Shown piece by piece: positions 3,305 through 49,709 of a stretch of DNA of 49,709 nucleotides. A program made the translations under genes and the position numbers. This DNA is from Eubacteriales bacterium. Lineage in GTDB: Bacteria > Bacillota > Clostridia > Lachnospirales > Lachnospiraceae. Under the pieces are notes generated by a model. It was not told the DNA's origin and made no database searches. It saw nothing but the letters and a program-made list of their open reading frames with translations. Numbering within the stretch: position 1 is the stretch's first letter; each line of letters begins with the position of its first letter. The DNA lies in NCBI GenBank assembly GCA_030531555.1, contig JAUNNI010000005.1, forward strand, positions 5,248 to 54,956, read 5' to 3'.

Positions 3305-3539
3305 AAATCTTTCCCCTTCTTTCTAAAATTCATCACAGTATATTTGTATTCTAATTTATATTTTATCAAAAGATATCAGGATTCTTAGTAAGAAAAAATA
3401 GTGTTAGTTGGAAATATCCCACGTGTGATTATTAATACAAAAATGATGGTTTTATCTTCCTAAAAAAGGTCATTTGCTTATGCTAGAATATAGTTGATTT
3501 ATGATATGTGTGACGAGACTATAGAGGGAGGAGAGTAAT

Positions 3540-4142
3540 ATGGAACGTACAGAATTAGAAGCTTTGGTTGTACAAAAAGAATGGGATATGTTCCAAAAAG
3601 TAAATGGAATCGGTGGCCGTGCTGCCTGTCAGGACCAGATGGCAACTTTTATCATCATGAGAACAAGTCAGTTTGAAAGCTGGGAGCTTAATGTAGTAGA
3701 AAGCTATCTGCAGGATTTGGTTGAGGCAGAAAATGAAGGACGTAATCTGCTTATGGAAAAATATGCTTATATGATGGAAGAAACAGACCCTGTTTATTTT
3801 GAGCAGATTCGAAAACTCTTACCAAAAGTAACTCCTAAAAAGATACTTCTCGTAGAAAAAATCGTTACTCATTATATGGCCTGGGTAGAAGAATTTGCTA
3901 TAGCGTACCCTCATATTCGAAAAAATGGTCGTCCGGCAGAAGGGATTTCTTTAGATGGAACAACCAGTTTACGTAACTATTTGCAGAGTGAATTATATAC
4001 TTATTCAGAAAGAACGTTGGAATTGTTTGCCGGAAGTATCATCAGTAATGTTGAGCTGAATCGTTATTGGCTTAGCATGGAGAAGATGGCACAGGCCTAT
4101 GGATATAACAATCTGGATGAAGCAGAGGCAGATTTAGCATAA
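3540..4142 (+). CDS. DUF4125 family protein
   Basis: A 200-aa cytosolic, mostly helical protein. The N-terminal block EWDMFQKVNGIGGRAACQ (about residues 14-31), followed by an M-F-I-I-M-R-x-S-Q-F segment, is what I associate with DUF4125, a family of unknown function. There is no signal peptide or membrane segment. The ATG at 3540 follows GGGAGGAG. It runs divergently from the resolvase-like/TPR operon with 235 bp between them, and is 18 nt upstream of the PfpI gene with which it probably forms an operon. No biochemical role can be assigned. Confidence 0.7.
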   Translation: MERTELEALVVQKEWDMFQKVNGIGGRAACQDQMATFIIMRTSQFESWELNVVESYLQDLVEAENEGRNLLMEKYAYMMEETDPVYFEQIRKLLPKVTPKKILLVEKIVTHYMAWVEEFAIAYPHIRKNGRPAEGISLDGTTSLRNYLQSELYTYSERTLELFAGSIISNVELNRYWLSMEKMAQAYGYNNLDEAEADLA

Positions 4143-39894: not shown

Positions 39895-40374
39895 TTATTC
39901 TGGGTAAGTAAGACGATCTGCTGTTGGATGAAGAAGGGCTTCGTCTAAATATTTTTTCGCAAGAAATCTTGCCATAGGAAGATTCATATCCAGATAATTT
40001 CCACAGTCTTTTGCAGCAGCTCCTGGAACGTCTCCTTCAAATGTGGAGATGAAAAGGAAGGTGTCTCTTACAAGTGGAAGAATTTCTTCTGAGGTATAAT
40101 CCCCTGCGACGATCAGATAATTGCCAGTGCGGCAGCCCATCGGTCCAAAATAAATGATTTTATCTTTCCATGTTGGCTCATTGCGAAGATAAGTGGCAGC
40201 GAGATGCTCGATGGTATGTAATTCTGCTGTGTTCATAACAGGCTCCCTGTTTGGAGCAGTCATACGAAGGTCAAAAGTGGTGAGGATTTCCTGTCCCACA
40301 TAATCTTTTCTGGATACATACACTCCTGGGAAAAGGTCAAGATGATTTACGGTAAAGCTGGCAATTTTCTCCAT
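39895..40374 (-). CDS. luxS: S-ribosylhomocysteine lyase
   Basis: A 159-aa metalloenzyme that splits S-ribosylhomocysteine to homocysteine and DPD, the precursor of autoinducer-2. Metal ligands are His53 and His57 (ELHTIEHLAATYLRN) and Cys124 (KDCGNYL). The catalytic Cys81 lies in GPMGCRTGNY. The N-terminus NHLDLFPGVYVSRKD is typical. The start is at 40374 after TGGAGA; the frame extends 75 nt upstream without a site, across the promoter. It is monocistronic. Confidence 0.96.
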   Translation of the reverse strand: MEKIASFTVNHLDLFPGVYVSRKDYVGQEILTTFDLRMTAPNREPVMNTAELHTIEHLAATYLRNEPTWKDKIIYFGPMGCRTGNYLIVAGDYTSEEILPLVRDTFLFISTFEGDVPGAAAKDCGNYLDMNLPMARFLAKKYLDEALLHPTADRLTYPE

Positions 40375-40420
40375 GTTTTTTCTCCATTCTAATGATTCTG
40401 ATAATGATTTGTTTTTGTTT

Positions 40421-40449
40421 ACTATACTCCATATTCTGTAAGTGGTCAA
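40421..40449 (-). promoter_or_regulatory. SigA-like promoter of luxS
   Basis: Minus strand: TTGACC (40449-40444), 17-bp spacer, TATAGT (40426-40421). Confidence 0.75.
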
Positions 40450-40523
40450 GAAAAGGGAAAAAGCTTTGAAAAATAGTGGAAATTTATTTTAACATGTGAT
40501 ATTATATGAAAGATTGAGCTTAT

Positions 40524-40597
40524 GGGAGGCTGTGACCGAGACTTCTGAAAAGCATATTTGCTTCAAATATGTTTTTCAGTCGTTTCGGAAGCTTCCC
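40524..40597 (+). promoter_or_regulatory. Long hairpin in the pnp leader
   Basis: Outer stem GGGAGGCT (40524-40531) with AGCTTCCC (40590-40597), an internal loop, then a 16-bp stem CTGAAAAGCATATTTG (40545-40560) with 40564-40579 around a 3-nt loop. Both irregular pairs are G:U on the + strand. It ends 40 nt before the pnp start. In other bacteria a pnp leader duplex cut by RNase III mediates PNPase autoregulation; a like role here is inferred. Confidence 0.7.
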
Positions 40598-40637
40598 TGA
40601 TATTATTATTTTTCATTAATTTAAGGAGGATTTCCAA

Positions 40638-42728
40638 ATGAGTAAACAGTTTTCTATGGAACTGGCAGGAAGAACCCTGACAGTTGAAATTGGCAAAGTT
40701 TGCGCACAGGCAAATGGCGCAGCACTTATGCGTTATGGCGACACTGTTGTTTTATCCACAGCAACAGCATCTGATAAACCACGTGATGGAATCGATTTCT
40801 TCCCACTTAGTGTAGAATTCGAAGAAAAAATGTATGCAGTAGGCCGCATTCCAGGTGGCTTCAACAAGAGAGAAGGAAAGGCTAGCGAACATGCAGTTCT
40901 TACTTCTCGTGTAATCGACCGTCCAATGCGTCCATTATTCCCTAAGGATTACCGCAATGATGTTACATTGAACAATATGGTTATGGCAGTTGATCCAGAA
41001 TGCTCCCCAGAAGTACTTGCTATGCTTGGCTCTTCTGTAGCAACATCCATCTCTGACATTCCATTTGATGGTCCAATCGCTGCAACAATCATTGGTCTTG
41101 TAGATGGTGAATTTGTTGTAAACCCTACATCAGATCAACAGTTAGTTTCTGATCTTTACCTTACTGTTGCTTCCACAGCAGAAAAAGTTATCATGATTGA
41201 AGCTGGTGCAAAAGAAGTACCAGAAGATAAAATGATTGAAGCAATTTTCAAGGCTCACGAAGTGAACCAGGAAGTGATCAAATTCATCCAGAAGATTGTT
41301 GATGAATGTGGTAAAGAAAAACATGAATACGAACATGTAGATACTCCAGAAGATCTCTGGGATGATATGGTTGCATTCATCACTCCAGAAGCCATGGAAG
41401 AAGCAGTATTTACAGATGTAAAACAGGTTCGTGAAGAAAATATCCGTCAGATTAAAGACAAATTAGCAGAACGTTATGAAGAAGAACATGAAGAATGGCT
41501 TCCACTCATTGACGATGCAGTTTATAAATTCCAGAAGAAGACAGTACGTAAGATGATCTTAAAAGATCACAAACGTCCAGACGGTCGTGGCATCACAGAA
41601 ATCCGTCCACTCTCCGCTGAAATCGATCTTCTTCCAAGAGTACATGGTTCTGGTATGTTCAAACGTGGACAGACTCAGATTATGACAATCACAACACTTG
41701 CTCCACTTTCCGAAGCACAGAAAATCGATGGAATCGATGCAAATGTTACATCCAAGAGATATATGCATCACTACAATTTCCCAAGCTACTCCGTAGGAGA
41801 AACAAAACCAAGCAGAGGTCCGGGACGTCGTGAAATCGGTCATGGTGCACTTGCTGAAAAAGCTCTTGTACCAGTACTTCCAAGTGAAGATGAATTCCCA
41901 TATGCAATCCGTACCGTATCTGAAACATTAGAATCCAACGGATCTACATCTCAGGCTTCTATCTGTGCATCTACACTTTCTCTTATGGCAGCAGGTGTAC
42001 CAATCAAAAAACCAGTAGCAGGTATCTCTACAGGTCTTGTAACAGGTGATACAGATGATGACTACATTGTACTTACTGATATCCAGGGTCTTGAAGACTT
42101 CTTCGGTGACATGGACTTTAAAGTAGCAGGTACTCATGATGGTATCACTGCAATCCAGATGGATATTAAGATTCATGGTCTTACACCAGCAATCATCAAA
42201 GAAGCGATTGCTAAGACAAAAGAAGCAAGAGAACATATCCTTACAAACGTTATGGAACCTGTAATTGCTCAGCCAAGAGAACACGTTGGTGAATTTGCTC
42301 CTAAGATTCAGCAGATTACAATTGATCCTGAGAAGATCAGCGAAGTAATTGGTAAACAGGGTAAAGTAATCAACAGTATTATTGATGAAACAGGTGTAAA
42401 AATTGATATCAATGATGAAGGACGTGTGGATGTATGTGGTGTTGATCAGGCTATGATCGATCGTGCCATCGAAATCATCCGTCTTATTGTAGAACCTGTG
42501 GAAGCTGGTCAGATTTACGAAGGTGAAGTTGTTCGTATTATGAATTTTGGTGCATTCGTTCAGCTTGCTCCAAACAAAGATGGTCTTGTACATATTTCTA
42601 AGCTTTCCAAGGAAAGAGTTGAAAAAGTAGAAGATGTTGTAAACATCGGTGACAAAGTTAAGGTAAAAGTTCTTGAAATCGATAAGATGGGAAGAATTAA
42701 CCTTGCATTACGTGAAATCATCAAATAA
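40638..42728 (+). CDS. pnp: Polynucleotide phosphorylase
   Basis: A 696-aa 3'-5' exoribonuclease. It has two RNase PH-like domains (about residues 10-210 and 310-530) with [20 protein letters not shown] and the second-core segments [15 protein letters not shown] and PPG-type loop [20 protein letters not shown]. The KH domain (about 553-610) shows [16 protein letters not shown] and the S1 domain (about 620-692) shows [17 protein letters not shown]. Full length, with AAGGAGG 9 nt upstream. It is monocistronic with a structured leader and terminator. Confidence 0.97.
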
Positions 42729-42756
42729 ACTCTGTAAAAGCATAAAGTAAGATTAG

Positions 42757-42800
42757 GCATCTTTGGCAATGGATTGATTCATTGCCGGGATGCTTTTTTA
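42757..42800 (+). terminator. Intrinsic terminator of pnp
   Basis: GCATC (42757-42761) and GGCAATG (42765-42771) pair with CATTGCC (42780-42786) and GATGC, then T6. Confidence 0.85.
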
Positions 42801-42879
42801 TTGCATTTATTTAAAATATGACCTTTTAGAAATAATTGTTTGTTATTTCAAAAAAAAACATATCTTTTTTGCAAAAATG

Positions 42880-42908
42880 TTGCCGAATGTGTGAAAAAAA
42901 TATATAAT
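42880..42908 (+). promoter_or_regulatory. SigA-like promoter of the HsdS/HsdM-like pair
   Basis: TTGCCG (42880-42885), 17-bp spacer, TATAAT (42903-42908), 34 bp before the GTG start. Confidence 0.7.
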
Positions 42909-42941
42909 GAAACTGTATAGGCACTAGAAGGGAGAAAGAAC

Positions 42942-43544
42942 GTGGAACTGAGATTGGAGCAAATCAGCCAGATTACACATGGCGTTGTTTTGAACCGAAT
43001 AAAATCAAAGATTCAAAATGAAGGGAAAGAATATCCTATTCTTACCATAAGCCAATTGATTGATGAAGAGAATGGTATTTCGGATTATGAGGTTTCTTCT
43101 GTTTTTGTTGACCCTAAAAAGGAAAAGAATCTTAATCTTGTAAAAGAACATTCGGTTGTCATTGGTCTCACTTCATTTCATCGTGCCGTTGTATTAGAAA
43201 AACAACATGTGGGTAAGATCATTACTTCGAACTTCGTTTCCATCGATTTCCGAAACGGAATTATGGATCCGTATTATTTTGCCTGGTATTTCAACGAACA
43301 TCCGGAGATTGAGAAACAGCGTCTCATCGCCATTCAGGGAAATTCTTCGGTAAAAGTACTTTCCATTCACATGATTCGACAGCTTCCAATCATATGTCCA
43401 GATCTGTCGACTCAGATGGCTATTGGTAAATTATATTATTATCAGAATAGAAAACAGTTGCTTCTCATGGAAAAAATGCGTTTGGAGCGGGAAGTTCGTA
43501 GCGAGGAGATTATGCAGCGTTTAAAACAATTTGAAGATGACTGA
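42942..43544 (+). CDS. Half-size HsdS-like protein (single target recognition domain)
   Basis: A 200-aa protein resembling half of a type I restriction-modification specificity subunit. It holds one target recognition domain (about residues 1-150; LTISQLIDEENGISDYEV, VVIGLTSFHRAVVLEKQHVG, NFVSIDFRN, DPYYFAWYF). The characteristic end SIHMIRQLPIICPDLSTQMA (about 146-165) follows, then a helical arm (about 166-200). Full HsdS subunits carry two such units; this one could dimerise. The GTG start at 42942 follows GGGAG. Its stop overlaps or abuts the HsdM-like start. No hsdR gene is nearby. Confidence 0.8.
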   Translation: MELRLEQISQITHGVVLNRIKSKIQNEGKEYPILTISQLIDEENGISDYEVSSVFVDPKKEKNLNLVKEHSVVIGLTSFHRAVVLEKQHVGKIITSNFVSIDFRNGIMDPYYFAWYFNEHPEIEKQRLIAIQGNSSVKVLSIHMIRQLPIICPDLSTQMAIGKLYYYQNRKQLLLMEKMRLEREVRSEEIMQRLKQFEDD

Positions 43545-43554
43545 GGAATGGATG

Positions 43555-44940
43555 ATGGACGAGAAAGAAATGAAATATCAGTTTATGACCATTCTCACAG
43601 AGACTCATCCGGGATTGACTTTTGAAGAGTACAGAGATTGCTGTATTTTTCTTTTATTTTTTCAATACCTGTGTTTGAGATATGATGATAGACTTGATGA
43701 AGAATACAAATTAAATATGATGGTTCGTTTGGCTATTCGCGGTAAGTTGCAGATGGATTCTTTTCTGCGTTTTCTTCAGAATACTTCTGCTCAGTTGCAT
43801 CTGTATTGTTCAGATTTTTACCTGACAGATTTCTCATTCTACAAACAGCTTCTTGATGTTCAGCCTTTGGAGAAGCAGAAAAGTTATGCCAGATTTTTCC
43901 GTAAAATTATTAAAAAGATAGAGGCATGGGAGAAAGAAGAATGTCTTTATGAGTGTTATCCGGCGTGTTTTGAAGCTTTAGTACAGGAATTTGCATCCAT
44001 GAAAAAAGATACTGCCATTCCGGCAAACATCGTGGAATTGTATCAGGCTTTTGGTGGTGAACATCTGAGAAAAGATGGTATCAGCGTTTTTCAGCCAGAA
44101 TTTCGCTATGGAACATTACTTAGAGCTGTTGTGGGAGATTCCAGTCAACCGAAGCTTTTTGGTTATGAGAAAAGTGACGAATATATCGAATATATGACCA
44201 TGCTTTCTTTCATGTACGAAATACCGAAAGAACAGTGGTTTTTTGTAGATCAAAAACAGTGGCTTGGGACAAAACATTTCCTCGGAAAAGCAGATCGGGT
44301 TTGTATTTACATGCCGGACGGTGTGGAGGCAGGAGATTATCTGACTGCGGAAGAAGAAAATAAAATGGTAAAGAAATTGTTCAATCTTCGAACCAAGGGA
44401 GAACTGCCGCTTCTTCTTTCTGCATTTCCAATCTTGAAAGAGGATGGAGATCTTATGGCGATTCTTCCAAGTGCCCTGCTCTATCGAGAGGGAAAAGAAG
44501 CACAGGTAAGAAAATATTTGGTAGAAGACATGAATTGTTTAGATACCATTGTACTTTTGCCAGATTCTGTATTTCCGTCTCTTGGGCAGCAAGAAGTATT
44601 TCTTTATATAAAGAAGAATCGTAAGCAGAAGGATATCATGTTTTTTGATTGTTCTACTTGTGATTCTTTTGACAGTGATTTGATCAAAGAAATCAAAAAG
44701 GCCAGAAAAAGTCGTAAAGATGTTACCGGTTTTTGTAGCTGTGTTCAGCAGGAGGAGATTCAGGAGAATGATTACAATCTGAATCTGCCAAGATATATAA
44801 AGCAGGTTGTAGGCTTTGAGGTTGTTGATATCAATGAAAAGCGAAAACGAATTGCGGAGATTGAACAGGAATTAAAAGAGATTGATCAGCGGATTGAAAT
44901 GTATCGCTGCGATTTAGAATTAGATCGTTTTGTTCGATAA
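43555..44940 (+). CDS. HsdM-like protein lacking methyltransferase motifs
   Basis: A protein of about 461 aa that keeps the HsdM scaffold. It has an N-terminal helical domain (FEEYRDCCIFLLFFQYL, about 23-39), a central Rossmann-like part and the C-terminal block GDLMAILPSALLYREGKEAQ (298-317) with VLLPDSVFPSLGQ. The HsdM tail YNLNLPRY (407-414) and a coiled coil end the protein. At the SAM motif, where HsdM has DPxCGSG, it reads FQPEFRYG (179-186); at the NPPF/Y motif it reads CIYMPDG (250-256). It is probably catalytically dead. The start is uncertain: 43555 has GAGGA 7 nt upstream, while 43552, 43537 (ATG) and 43531 (TTG) are alternatives. It is translationally coupled to the HsdS-like gene, with ftsK 171 nt downstream. 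Confidence 0.78.
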   Translation: MDEKEMKYQFMTILTETHPGLTFEEYRDCCIFLLFFQYLCLRYDDRLDEEYKLNMMVRLAIRGKLQMDSFLRFLQNTSAQLHLYCSDFYLTDFSFYKQLLDVQPLEKQKSYARFFRKIIKKIEAWEKEECLYECYPACFEALVQEFASMKKDTAIPANIVELYQAFGGEHLRKDGISVFQPEFRYGTLLRAVVGDSSQPKLFGYEKSDEYIEYMTMLSFMYEIPKEQWFFVDQKQWLGTKHFLGKADRVCIYMPDGVEAGDYLTAEEENKMVKKLFNLRTKGELPLLLSAFPILKEDGDLMAILPSALLYREGKEAQVRKYLVEDMNCLDTIVLLPDSVFPSLGQQEVFLYIKKNRKQKDIMFFDCSTCDSFDSDLIKEIKKARKSRKDVTGFCSCVQQEEIQENDYNLNLPRYIKQVVGFEVVDINEKRKRIAEIEQELKEIDQRIEMYRCDLELDRFVR

Positions 44941-44967
44941 AATCAAATTATATATTGAATTTCTAGA

Positions 44968-45005
44968 AAAAGTGCTTGTTATTTTATTAAAAAACAAGCA
45001 CTTTT
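44968..45005 (+). terminator. Intrinsic terminator of the HsdS/HsdM-like pair
   Basis: AAAAGTGCTTGTT (44968-44980) pairs with AACAAGCACTTTT (44993-45005), 13 bp perfect, followed by a T-rich stretch. Confidence 0.85.
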
Positions 45006-45030
45006 CATCTTTTGTTTTTTGTGTTATGAT
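45002..45030 (+). promoter_or_regulatory. Promoter of ftsK
   Basis: TTTTCA (45002-45007), 17-bp spacer, TATGAT (45025-45030) with an extended -10 TGT; the -35 box overlaps the preceding terminator arm. Confidence 0.5.
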
Positions 45031-45111
45031 TAATATCGACTTAAAATGTAATGAAATATAGAGTAGTTGATAAAGAACTGTATCTTTGAATAGATAGAAA
45101 AGAGGAATAAT

Positions 45112-47994
45112 ATGGCGAATCAGACCAACAGAAAACGTCGTAGTGCCAATAGCAAAAAGAAGACCAATGCTTCAAAGACGAAAAACACTGCGAAAAAATC
45201 AAGGAAAAAAACTGGCACTTCACAGAGACGAAATACATCTGCTACCAAGAAAGTTTCCAGCAAAAAGCCTGTGAATAAAAATACAAAACAACAACTGTCG
45301 GAAGAAAATGTAAATATGCGAGTGGAGATTCCTATCGTTGCGTCTTTCTTTGTGATGCTTCTATTGATGCTAAGTAATTTTGGCATTTGTGGCACGGCAG
45401 GAAACATTTTGAGCAGCTTTTTCTTTGGACTGTTTGGATGTGTACAATATGTGATGCCTATGGTGGCTTTTGTTGCCATTTGTGTTCTTTTGATTAACGA
45501 ATACAGTGGCCTGGCTATGAAAAAATGTCTGGCAGCTTTTCTATTTCTGATGATGGTTTCAGGATATGTTCAGCTGATGAAACAGACGGGCAGTAATGAC
45601 ATTTACCAGCTTTTTGCCATCGGAATCAAAGATCGTCTGACAGGTGGTATCATTGGTGGAGGATTTGCCTGCCTTTTAAAAAGATGGTTTGGTATGATAG
45701 GAGCAGGACTGATCATGGCCTGCATCACTATTTTATCATTGATCATGCTGACACAGAGATCGGTAGTGGAATTCTTTAGAAAATGGTTTGGCATAATTCA
45801 GAATGCTTTAGGAGAACGTAATACTTCTCGTCCTGTTAAAGAAACAAAGAGACGAAAAACATTAGAAGACAGAGAACGTGAAAAACAGTGTGAGGACAAA
45901 GTTAAAAAACTAGAAGAAGAGAAACTTCAAGCCCGTCTTAGAAGAAAAATGGAGAAAAAGGAAGAGAAAGAAGTGGCTGCTTCTGCAGATTTCAAAGTAC
46001 CAACCTTTAAGCCATCCGACGAAGTGAAACACAAGGATTCTGTGAAAGAACTTCACCCGGAAATCTATCCATTTACTCAGGAAGACGGACAGACAGATCC
46101 ATTTAAAGGAGAATTGGATCTGACGGCATTTTCTTTTAATAGTGGAAAGAGTTCTGAAGAATATCGAAAAGAAGTGCAGGAACATATTCAGTTTGGAGAG
46201 GCTTTGGAGAAACAGATTGAAGAAGCCAGCCACAGTATTAGCTCAAAAGGAATGCGAGAAATCGAGCATTCGGATGAGGATTATGTTGTAACAGTGGAGG
46301 ATGGATTTGAAGAGGATCCGGCGTATGACATTTTCCCATCGATTGATGAAGAATACGGTCCGGCGAAAATCGATTCTCAGGATTCTGAAGAAGTGACTAC
46401 AGACGAAATCGTTTTTGAAGCCGATGATGTGGTGGAAAGCGATATCATTATCCACAAGGAAGAAAAAAAACCAGAAGAAAATGAAAAGAAGAAAAACGAT
46501 GCTTTTTTCAGTGTGAAAAAGGCAGAGGGGGCTGACTATACATTTCCACCTCTAAGCCTCTTGCAGGCAGGAGAAAGAAAATCGGATGTCAATCATGATG
46601 AGGCATTGAAGAATACCGCAATCAAATTACAGGAGACTTTGCGCAGCTTTGGAGTAAATGTAAAGATTACCGATATCAGTTTTGGGCCAACGGTAACCCG
46701 TTATGAGATGGTACCGGAGCAGGGAACAAAGGTAAGTAAGATTGTTTCTTTGACGGATGATATCAAATTGAATCTGGCAGCCGAGGATATTCGTATTGAA
46801 GCTCCAATTCCGGGAAAATCTGCCATTGGTATCGAGGTGCCAAATAAAGATACCCTGACGGTTCATTTCCGTGAGCTTATTGACAGTAAGAGATTCCGTG
46901 ATTTCCGCTCTAAGCTTGCTTTTGCAGTAGGTAAAGACATCGGAGGGCAGACTGTAATCTCCGATATTGCCAAAATGCCTCACCTTTTGATTGCTGGTGC
47001 CACTGGCTCCGGTAAGTCTGTATGCATTAACACTTTGATCATGAGTATCTTATATAAAGCCAGACCAGATGAGGTAAAATTGATCATGATTGATCCAAAG
47101 ATGGTGGAACTTAGTATTTACAATGGTATTCCTCATCTTTTGATTCCGGTTGTCACAGATCCAAAGAAGGCATCCGGTGCTTTAAACTGGGCTGTTGCGG
47201 AAATGACAGACAGATACAATCGCTTCACCGAAGTTGGTGTTCGTAATATTGCAGGTTATAATGATAAGATCCAACATCTGGAAAAAAGTGGTGAAGTAGA
47301 GGCAGGTAAATTAAAGCCAATGCCGCAGATTGTAGTCATCATCGACGAACTTGCAGATCTTATGATGGTTGCACCTGGTGAGGTAGAAGATGCCATTGTT
47401 CGCCTTTCTCAGCTTGCCAGAGCTGCGGGTATCCACCTTGTTATTGCAACACAGAGACCATCGGTTAATGTTATTACTGGTTTGATCAAAGCAAATGTGC
47501 CATCCAGAATTGCGTTTGCAGTATCCTCTGGTGTGGATAGTCGAACCATCATTGATATGAATGGAGCGGAAAAACTGTTAGGAAAAGGTGATATGCTTTT
47601 CTTCCCGGCGGGTTCTTCCAAGCCAAGCCGTGTACAGGGAGCCTTTATCTCCGATGATGAGATTTTCTCTGTAGTAGAATTTTTAAAGGAAAATGAAACA
47701 ATAATTGAATACGATAATACGATTGAAGAATCCATCGCAAAATCCAGTACCTCAAAATCGAGCGCTATGGACCGCGATGAGTATTTTGAAGATGCTGCAC
47801 GTTTCATTATGGAAAAAGAAAAAGCCAGCATCGGCATGCTGCAAAGAATGTTTAAAATCGGTTTTAACCGTGCAGCCAGAATCATGGATCAGCTGGCGGA
47901 AGCTGGAATTGTAGGACCGGAGGAAGGGACAAAACCAAGAAAAATCCTCATGAGTCCAGAACAGCTGGAAGAGTATTTTGAAGAATATTTGTAA
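45112..47994 (+). CDS. ftsK: DNA translocase FtsK/SpoIIIE
   Basis: A 960-aa membrane-anchored DNA pump. It has a highly basic N-terminus (about 1-60), four membrane helices (about 70-220), a long acidic/charged linker (about 225-500), and the motor. The motor carries Walker [10 protein letters not shown] (about 628-636), Walker [13 protein letters not shown], and [20 protein letters not shown]. The C-terminal winged-helix gamma domain (about 890-960; [20 protein letters not shown]) reads orientation sequences that direct pumping. It acts at the division or sporulation septum to clear trapped chromosome. It follows the HsdS/HsdM-like pair and precedes folD. Confidence 0.96.
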
Positions 47995-48057
47995 AAAATT
48001 AATGCTTTACTAATAAGATTTTTTGCGATATTATTAATTATCTTTGGTCGTTTTTCT

Positions 48058-48090
48058 AAAAGGGATAGATCAGGGGGCTATCCCTTTTTT
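48058..48090 (+). terminator. Intrinsic terminator of ftsK
   Basis: AAAGGGATAG (to 48068) pairs with CTATCCCTTT (from 48078), 9-nt loop, then T-run. Confidence 0.9.
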
Positions 48091-48143
48091 GGACCAGATT
48101 AATATATTGTTCGAAGCATTATGCTTCAGGAAAAGAGGATGAT

Positions 48144-48989
48144 ATGGCTTACATTATTGATGGTAAGAAGATTTCTTCCGAGATTAAAGAAGAATTAAAA
48201 GAGACAGTTGCTCAGTTAAAAGAGGATGGTGTTTCTGCATGCCTTGCAGTAATTCAGGTTGGCAATGATCCAGCTTCCTCCGTATATGTTGGCAATAAGA
48301 AAAAGGCCTGTGCATTTATTGGGATTGATTCCAAATCCTATGAACTTCCGGAAGAAACTACCCAGGAAGAATTATTAGGACTGATTGATGAATTAAATCA
48401 GGATCCTGCAGTGGATGGAATTCTTGTTCAGCTTCCAATTCCTGCTCATATGGATGAAAAAGAAGTCATCCATGCAATCTCTCCAGCGAAAGACGTAGAT
48501 GGTTTCCATCCTCAGAGTGTGGGAGCTCTCTCCATTGGAGAAGAAGGATTTGTATCCTGTACCCCAGCTGGGATTATTCAACTTTTAAAACGTTCCAATA
48601 TTGAGATTGAAGGAAAAGAATGTGTTGTAGTTGGACGTAGTAATATTGTTGGAAAACCAATGGCAATGCTTCTTTTACGTGAAAATGGAACCGTGACAAT
48701 TTGTCACTCCAGAACAAAGGATCTTCGCGAAGTGTGTAAACGTGCAGATATTCTTGTTGCAGCAATCGGTAAACCTAGATTTTTTGATGACAGTTATGTA
48801 AAAGATGGCGCAGTTGTGATCGACGTTGGAATTCATCGAGGCGAAGATGGAAAGCTTTGCGGCGATGTCGATTATGCAAAGGTAGTGGATAAAGTTTCTG
48901 CCATCACACCAGTTCCTGGCGGAGTAGGTCCTATGACCATCGCTATGCTGATGAACAACTGTGTGGAAGCAGCAAAAAGGAAAAGATAA
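48144..48989 (+). CDS. folD: Methylenetetrahydrofolate dehydrogenase/methenyltetrahydrofolate cyclohydrolase
   Basis: A 281-aa bifunctional enzyme of one-carbon metabolism that interconverts 5,10-methylene- and 10-formyl-tetrahydrofolate. It shows VGNDPASSVYVGNKKKAC (about residues 40-57; Tyr and Lys are catalytic), DGILVQLPIPAHM (about 94-106), PAKDVDGFHP, VVVGRSNIVGKPMAMLLL (about 162-179) and the C-terminal TPVPGGVGPMTIAMLM. The 10-formyl product would feed the AICAR transformylase found elsewhere in this window. It sits directly against rimO with no intergenic bases. Confidence 0.96.
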   Translation: MAYIIDGKKISSEIKEELKETVAQLKEDGVSACLAVIQVGNDPASSVYVGNKKKACAFIGIDSKSYELPEETTQEELLGLIDELNQDPAVDGILVQLPIPAHMDEKEVIHAISPAKDVDGFHPQSVGALSIGEEGFVSCTPAGIIQLLKRSNIEIEGKECVVVGRSNIVGKPMAMLLLRENGTVTICHSRTKDLREVCKRADILVAAIGKPRFFDDSYVKDGAVVIDVGIHRGEDGKLCGDVDYAKVVDKVSAITPVPGGVGPMTIAMLMNNCVEAAKRKR

Positions 48990-49709
48990 ATGAGAAATGT
49001 ATTGTTTATTTCTTTGGGATGTGACAAGAATCTGGTGGATAGTGAAAAAATGCTTGGTCTTTTAAAAGAAAGTGGCTACCAGATTGTGGAAGAAGAAGCA
49101 GAGGCGGATGCCATAGTAGTAAATACCTGCTGTTTTATCCATGATGCCAAAGAAGAAAGTATTGAGACAATCCTTGACATGGCCAGATGGAAAGAAGAGG
49201 GACGTCTTAAGGTTCTGCTTATTACAGGATGTCTTGCGCAGCGTTATGCACAGGAGATCGAGGAAGCAATTCCTGAAGTGGATGCTGTGATTGGTACCAC
49301 AGGTTATGGAGAGATTGTTTCCGTCATGAACCAGTTATTTGAAAAGAAAGAAGAAGGGCTTGTGACATATTGTCCAGATATTGATCTGCTTCCTCCTTCT
49401 TTTACAGATAAGCGTGTTGTCACAACAGGCGGCTACACTGCTTATCTTAAAATTGCAGAAGGCTGTAACAAACGTTGTACCTACTGCATCATTCCATATA
49501 TTCGCGGACATTATCGTAGTTTCCCTATGGAGGATCTTGTGGAAGAAGCGAAGATTCTTGCAGCAGATGGTGTGAAAGAACTGATTCTTATCGCTCAGGA
49601 AACTACGGTATATGGTGTGGACCTTTATGGAAAGAAGGCACTTCCAGAGCTTTTACATAAGCTGTGTGCCATAAATGATCTGGAATGGATCCGTATTCTC
49701 TACTGCTAT
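48990..49709 (+). CDS. rimO: Ribosomal protein S12 methylthiotransferase RimO (3' end outside window)
   Basis: The first 240 residues of a radical-SAM methylthiotransferase that modifies an aspartate of ribosomal protein S12. The N-terminal UPF0004 domain starts LFISLGCDKNLVDSEKMLG, with Cys residues at LGC, VVNTCCF and TGC that hold one iron-sulfur cluster. The radical SAM motif is EGCNKRCTYCIIPYIRG (CxxxCxxC, about residues 157-165). The sequence DKNLVDSE with GCxKN favours RimO over MiaB. The reading frame is open to the window end. The ATG immediately follows the folD stop, with AAAAAGG upstream. Confidence 0.93.
   Translation, partial: MRNVLFISLGCDKNLVDSEKMLGLLKESGYQIVEEEAEADAIVVNTCCFIHDAKEESIETILDMARWKEEGRLKVLLITGCLAQRYAQEIEEAIPEVDAVIGTTGYGEIVSVMNQLFEKKEEGLVTYCPDIDLLPPSFTDKRVVTTGGYTAYLKIAEGCNKRCTYCIIPYIRGHYRSFPMEDLVEEAKILAADGVKELILIAQETTVYGVDLYGKKALPELLHKLCAINDLEWIRILYCY

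Follow-up and report, generated by a model that had tools for sequence, protein, structure and literature searches.

As a rule, restriction systems evolve quickly, most quickly of all in their target-recognition domains (TRDs). Dam, CcrM and CamA are orphan methyltransferases that derive from restriction-modification (RM) systems, are chromosomal and conserved within clades, and act through methylating. Here we analyze a 49,709-nt stretch of contig JAUNNI010000005.1 from Eubacteriales bacterium assembly GCA_030531555.1 (the window), in which two adjacent genes encode a half-sized HsdS specificity subunit (S) and an HsdM-like protein (M). The S-M pair resembles these orphan enzymes in its RM origin, chromosomal setting and conservation within a clade, but it has neither their catalytic motifs nor those for S-adenosylmethionine (SAM). 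We consider it probable that S-M descends from a half-HsdS type I methyltransferase, has lost the ability to methylate and has been domesticated, and that it acts as a non-methylating complex predicted to bind DNA at specific sequences.

The closest described systems are type I methyltransferases with a half-HsdS, represented by the loci in Bacilli and Clostridia described below and by an engineered S. aureus CC398 half-S (PMC6158711). They share with S-M a half-S beside HsdM, the S-M gene order and a type IC-like HsdM, whereas S-M has no SAM motif I, NPPY motif or local hsdR, and its S is more conserved than its M. According to that article, half-HsdS with HsdM dimerises and reads a palindromic bipartite target, ACCN5GGT, and half-HsdS dimers are likened to BmrR-like homodimeric regulators of split palindromes (PMC6158711). 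The same mode of DNA reading would be expected for S-M, although the BmrR-like regulators belong to another protein family.

Another half-S-sized protein is Esub1, a streptococcal protein associated with paratox from phage. It provides the best fold match to S (PDB 8vsq and 8vsr, the latter with Prx). In the open library searched we found no paper on Esub1 and, judged by title and the start of the abstract, nothing describing the S-M pair.

A half-HsdS paired with a motif-less HsdM

The pair and its diagnostic sites are as follows.

42942..43544, + strand: S, half-HsdS with a single TRD and one long C-terminal helix, 200 aa, GTG start (open reading frame (ORF), PADLOC, AlphaFold2 (AF2), Foldseek)
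43555..44940, + strand: M, HsdM-fold protein without SAM motif I and NPPY (ORF, Pfam, AF2, Foldseek, alignment)
44089..44112, + strand: site of SAM motif I, FQPEFRYG in place of DPxCGSG; P187, Y191 and G192 invariant in 21 genus sequences
44302..44322, + strand: site of the catalytic NPPY motif, CIYMPDG; P260 and G262 invariant in 21/21
44767..44796, + strand: retained HsdM tail motif NDYNLNLPRY (alignment)

S is matched by the PADLOC type I specificity models (best 2.4e-9) and by Pfam Methylase_S only below the family cut-off. Its AF2 model (predicted local distance difference test, pLDDT, 89.3) shows one TRD followed by a long helix at residues 155-199, and the top Foldseek matches are Esub1 (8vsr/8vsq, template modelling (TM) score 0.76-0.77 by query length) and then HsdS 1yf2. 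Together the PADLOC models and the predicted fold identify S as an HsdS specificity subunit, as a half subunit only.

In M, Pfam N6_Mtase matches residues 200-423 (1.6e-22), TIGR00497 hsdM matches residues 286-446 (1.6e-21, below its cut-off), and the AF2 model (pLDDT 86.9) is a complete HsdM-like fold whose best Foldseek match is HsdM 3lkd (TM 0.69-0.71). An M profile of 20 rows, including the intact Aeribacillus HsdM, aligns with EcoR124I M (2.7e-53; residues 8-507) and with 3lkd (4.2e-62), and M is therefore type IC-like; searched on its own, the M of the window recovers both 3lkd (7.7e-22) and EcoR124I M (2.4e-11). The 3lkd match and the coverage of EcoR124I thus place in M an HsdM fold complete with its N-terminal domain and NDYNLNLPRY tail.

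What M does not have are the SAM and catalytic motifs. Both DPxCGSG and NPP[YF] are absent from all 21 aligned genus M proteins, which comprise 19 full-length sequences and two partial ones spanning both motif sites; an M fragment from genome G023 was excluded because it begins after both. All 19 full-length frames are uninterrupted (452-467 aa). The five residues invariant at these sites within the genus are not all kept in the two more distant relatives L070 and L071 described below. From the motif loss, methyltransferase activity of M is unlikely. A prior sequence-only reading of this DNA had proposed the single-TRD HsdS, the two degenerate motifs, the surviving N-terminal domain and tail, and the intact frames, all of which hold, with the residues checked as correct; a homologue with intact DPxCGSG/NPPF at the same locus, which it had named as evidence against itself, was found in 0/21.

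The M frame is open from 43531 (TTG) and offers a further ATG at 43537. In most relatives M begins at the codon corresponding to 43555, and the ATG at 43537, with its 8-nt overlap with S, is therefore probably not the real start.

The pair is characteristic of Anaerobutyricum

The host genus is Anaerobutyricum, and the type strain A. hallii DSM 3353 (L064) carries the pair. S was matched in 20/24 genus genomes including the window's own (19 of the 23 others, at 77-92% identity over the main match), and in 11/11 genomes of high quality, defined as completeness of at least 90% and contamination of at most 5%. The matches in G011, G012 and G013 are cut off by contig ends, and G011 holds an additional 51-aa S piece at 67% identity. 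M has a strong match (E<=1e-60) in 21 of the 23 other genomes and none in G014 and G019, both drafts (76% and 75%). The intactness of both frames and their conservation throughout the genus are features beyond chance.

Outside the genus the pair is scarce. Among 397 genomes of the family, strong S matches are confined to Anaerobutyricum (2 of the 397 are members) and four others are weak. Two Lachnospiraceae metagenome-assembled genomes (MAGs), L070 and L071, encode S at 53-54% identity followed by a motif-less M-like ORF, which in L071 runs off the contig; they alone matched among 61 genomes scanned around L070. Across 391 genomes of the class, five matched, the window's own included. Scanning genome contigs with the S alignment yielded 22 loci, and scanning them with M alone found nothing. 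In the S-protein tree (n=22) the genus clusters with L070/L071 (92/97, branch not starred) and Aeribacillus comes next; long branches make neither the deeper branching nor the position of L070/L071 within the genus reliable. A MAG labelled Coriobacteriaceae (L073) carries a 79% S fragment at a contig end, probably Anaerobutyricum contamination.

Probable origin from an ordinary half-S locus

As a control we sampled Bacilli, where 23/398 genomes have half-S matches, and used the 21 of those loci in which an adjacent M-type ORF was found. In these, the GSG of motif I and NPP[YF] are intact in 21/21, with four reading DG[TA]CGSG. The remaining 2/23 loci have an hsdR-like neighbour (by reading of sequence, as for the Clostridia below), while in the control loci themselves the stretches are short and only some of them show such a neighbour. 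Clostridial half-S genes sit with an intact HsdM (L077, L185), with an hsdR-like ORF (L079, L184, L186), or beside an HsdM interrupted by a masked stretch (L078). The Aeribacillus locus L074 has consecutive hsdR, half-S, intact HsdM and full S. In the same locus (Aeribacillus composti, 3384-4025) a reverse-transcriptase/maturase-like ORF lies, by eye, between hsdR and half-S. Because half-S relatives in Bacilli and Clostridia adjoin an intact HsdM or an hsdR-like ORF, S-M probably derives from an ordinary type I locus that contained a half-S.

An inverted evolutionary regime

Within Anaerobutyricum (18 genomes) mean pairwise identity is 84.5% for S and 54.6% for M, with S above M in 153/153 pairs, whereas in the control loci (n=21) it is 27.0% for S and 58.8% for M, with S above M in 0/210 pairs. 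The pairs are not independent, as the genomes are related, and the control pair L200/L201 (100/100) was kept in the count. The TRD of S is therefore not diversifying rapidly. Set against neighboring genes, S (84.6%, 18 genomes) is conserved at the level of pnp (89.4%, 9 genomes), folD (83.0%, 15) and the C-terminal part of FtsK (81.5%, 15), and M (54.7%, 19) falls well below. Distances in S correlate with those in M (r 0.81), FtsK (0.81), folD (0.73) and pnp (0.65). The ratio of nonsynonymous to synonymous substitution rates (dN/dS) is 0.007-0.036 for S and 0.044-0.131 for M, from the 6/10 tested pairs each with finite dS, the remainder being saturated; these ratios are rough, as dS is large in some pairs. 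The housekeeping-like conservation, the correlated distances and the low dN/dS together indicate purifying selection on both genes and mainly vertical descent. S-M is type I derived, yet it has no catalytic motifs, no hsdR at the locus and no TRD diversification, and this inverted regime, in which S is frozen and M has lost its catalytic motifs, is what is new in the pair.

The same data bear on whether S-M is simply the decaying remnant of an RM system. Loss of the catalytic motifs and the quick divergence of M are what decay would produce, but the 19 full-length M frames are unbroken, M dN/dS remains at 0.044-0.131 and S is conserved at housekeeping level with a low dN/dS of its own, so decay is extremely improbable; the sequence-only reading had argued against it from the intact frames and a promoter of the pair's own.

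A different possibility is that S-M was retained from an RM system as a non-methylating defence factor or sensor of phage DNA. Its nearest S relatives do adjoin intact HsdM or hsdR-like ORFs, several of them in plain RM loci. This explanation is nevertheless improbable: S-M occupies a single conserved locus with signs of vertical inheritance and a nearly invariant TRD, S in the 21 intact-HsdM loci diverges far faster than its HsdM, and no effector gene is consistently added between S and ftsK in the stretches inspected.

Persistence without hsdR or another HsdM

The window has no hsdR, as noted in the sequence-only reading, and a PF04313 profile gave none on the whole 84-kb contig, where a gene just outside would have counted against that reading; the sole PF04313 match of this genome lies on another contig, C140. 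Across the genus, PF04313 is matched in 10/24 genomes, including 7/11 of high quality, and has no match in the other 14, many of them drafts. Among the latter are the high-quality genomes G003, G005, G006 and G008, all of which retain S-M.

S could also serve as an alternative specificity subunit that borrows an intact HsdM encoded elsewhere, leaving M a dead passenger. Other N6_Mtase genes are indeed present in the window's genome (for example on C128, C140 and C3). Yet the pseudo-M is the sole PF02384 (N6_Mtase) match in six genomes (G001, G005, G009, G013, G015 and G016), of which only G005 is more than 90% complete, so that draft gaps may hide matches, and G009 has a PF04313 match. M itself is also under purifying selection, and we regard the borrowing of another HsdM as very unlikely. 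With the same caveat of draft gaps, at least G005 keeps S-M although neither an HsdR nor another HsdM was detected there.

Probably a domesticated, non-methylating complex

The families and predicted folds, the genus-wide motif loss, the signs of vertical inheritance, the strong constraint on S and the retention of the pair where no hsdR or other HsdM was detected are observed directly; from them we infer how S-M would work. The long C-terminal helices would probably join two S proteins into a dimer whose two identical TRDs could read a bipartite palindrome. Each S would bind one M-like protein, which may then close round the DNA to serve as scaffold or clamp and, with motif I and NPPY gone, S-M would bind without methylating. 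Because M is without catalytic motifs, the simplest product would be a symmetric protein clamp on fixed sites. On the host chromosome such a complex might act as a regulator, a roadblock or an architectural clamp, and not in defence.

Domestication, first proposed from the window alone, is well supported by its genus-wide occurrence, the motif loss in 21/21, the purifying selection and the presence of the pair in genomes with no detected hsdR. The pair suggests that exaptation can make a simple DNA-binding complex out of a type I methyltransferase; in this gut genus an element of immunity appears to have become a chromosomal DNA-binding complex. Anaerobutyricum, with its type strain, offers a testable case, possibly relevant to half-S proteins such as Esub1.

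Neighborhood and the question of FtsK

Two neighbors frame the pair in the window.

40638..42728, + strand: pnp; present in 9/17 fetched S-bearing stretches besides the window
45112..47994, + strand: ftsK/spoIIIE; after M on the same strand in 18/20 fetched genus stretches

The position between pnp and ftsK, which had struck the sequence-only reading, is thus general on the ftsK side and variable on the other. In the two exceptions to the M-ftsK order, the contig ends after M (L038) or shows no ftsK (L052). The common genus order is S, M, often a lipoprotein-like and a tepA-like gene (names assigned by reading sequence), ftsK and folD. Both middle genes are missing in the window, L033, L034, L041 and L047, and other loci are without one. 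The lipoprotein gene between M and the tepA-like gene (L037 9303-10067 and equivalents) is putatively solute-binding-like, by eye, and occurs in many genus members, not all. Upstream, pnp is absent from seven loci with at least 3.7 kb of DNA there, perhaps as one clade-level change, and L034 has no upstream DNA.

These arrangements raise the possibility that S-M is a partner of FtsK/SpoIIIE, marking or holding sites on the chromosome for segregation, translocation or division that depend on FtsK. M precedes ftsK again in L070, where the gene upstream of the pair is dtd-like, so that S-M stays by ftsK while its upstream neighbor varies (pnp, dtd-like or others), and it does so too in genomes that lack the tepA-like or the lipoprotein-like gene. 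In Candidatus A. stercoripullorum the tepA-ftsK-folD block faces away from S and still abuts it. However, in 19 stretches upstream of ftsK from other genera, in which no S or M was found, a tepA-like gene is matched in 9/19 and pnp in 4/19; since these genes precede ftsK where the pair is missing, the shared location can be plain inheritance. The C-terminal end of FtsK is ordinary, by reading of sequence, and S-M has its own promoter-like sequence in this genome. KOPS and SRS are directional motifs, and the expected symmetry of S-M argues against a role of that kind. A half-HsdS dimer reads palindromes (PMC6158711) and so would give FtsK no polarity. We consider a partnership with FtsK unlikely; the ftsK neighborhood pointed out in the earlier reading is conserved. 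By its position the pair seems to be a stable insertion in a neighborhood older than itself, which hints at a functional link to FtsK without proving it.

A more specific version is no less doubtful. It would make S-M a genus-wide half-S/M clamp that bookmarks the chromosome at fixed palindromic sites and works with, or is paced by, FtsK/SpoIIIE in segregation or sporulation, the M pocket (P187, Y191, G192, P260, G262) being remodelled for structure or another ligand.

Candidate regulatory sites

Two signals lie between pnp and S.

42762..42789, + strand: terminator-like hairpin after pnp (scan)
42880..42908, + strand: promoter-like TTGCCG-N17-TATAAT, best match, 10/12 (pattern scan)

Terminators in the window exceed chance (4 against 1.2 expected), whereas promoter matches do not (8 found against 7.6). 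By eye, 12/19 sequences have a TTGCC...TATAAT arrangement no more than 130 bp from S, with an unusual -35 of TTGCCG(AA) or TTGCCTGAA; in L046 it is about 300 bp away. It is missing in L038, L039 and L044, where S lies ~30-50 bp behind pnp, and in L033 and L040.

TTGCCG was also considered as a shared regulon box, and no regulon was evident in the sampled DNA (whole genomes were not searched). Of six TTGCCG-N16-18-TATAAT matches there, three are at S (the window, G003 and G022), one is elsewhere in G004 and the other two come from G008 and G020; with a looser pattern, 5 of the 9 matches listed are at S.

Statistical searches for a palindromic S-M target site found none, and an Rfam scan of 40000-49709 found nothing. 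A GTTAT-N8-ATAAC inverted repeat overlaps the -10 region upstream of S in L036, L042, L043, L049, L050 and L072, where it may possibly be an autoregulatory site. The approximate intergenic DNA of G004 (L083-L122, L163-L182) is rich in recurring inverted repeats, and ATGCC-N5-GGCAT occurs 24 times in 145 kb of it, compared with a single occurrence in 71 kb from the other genomes sampled.
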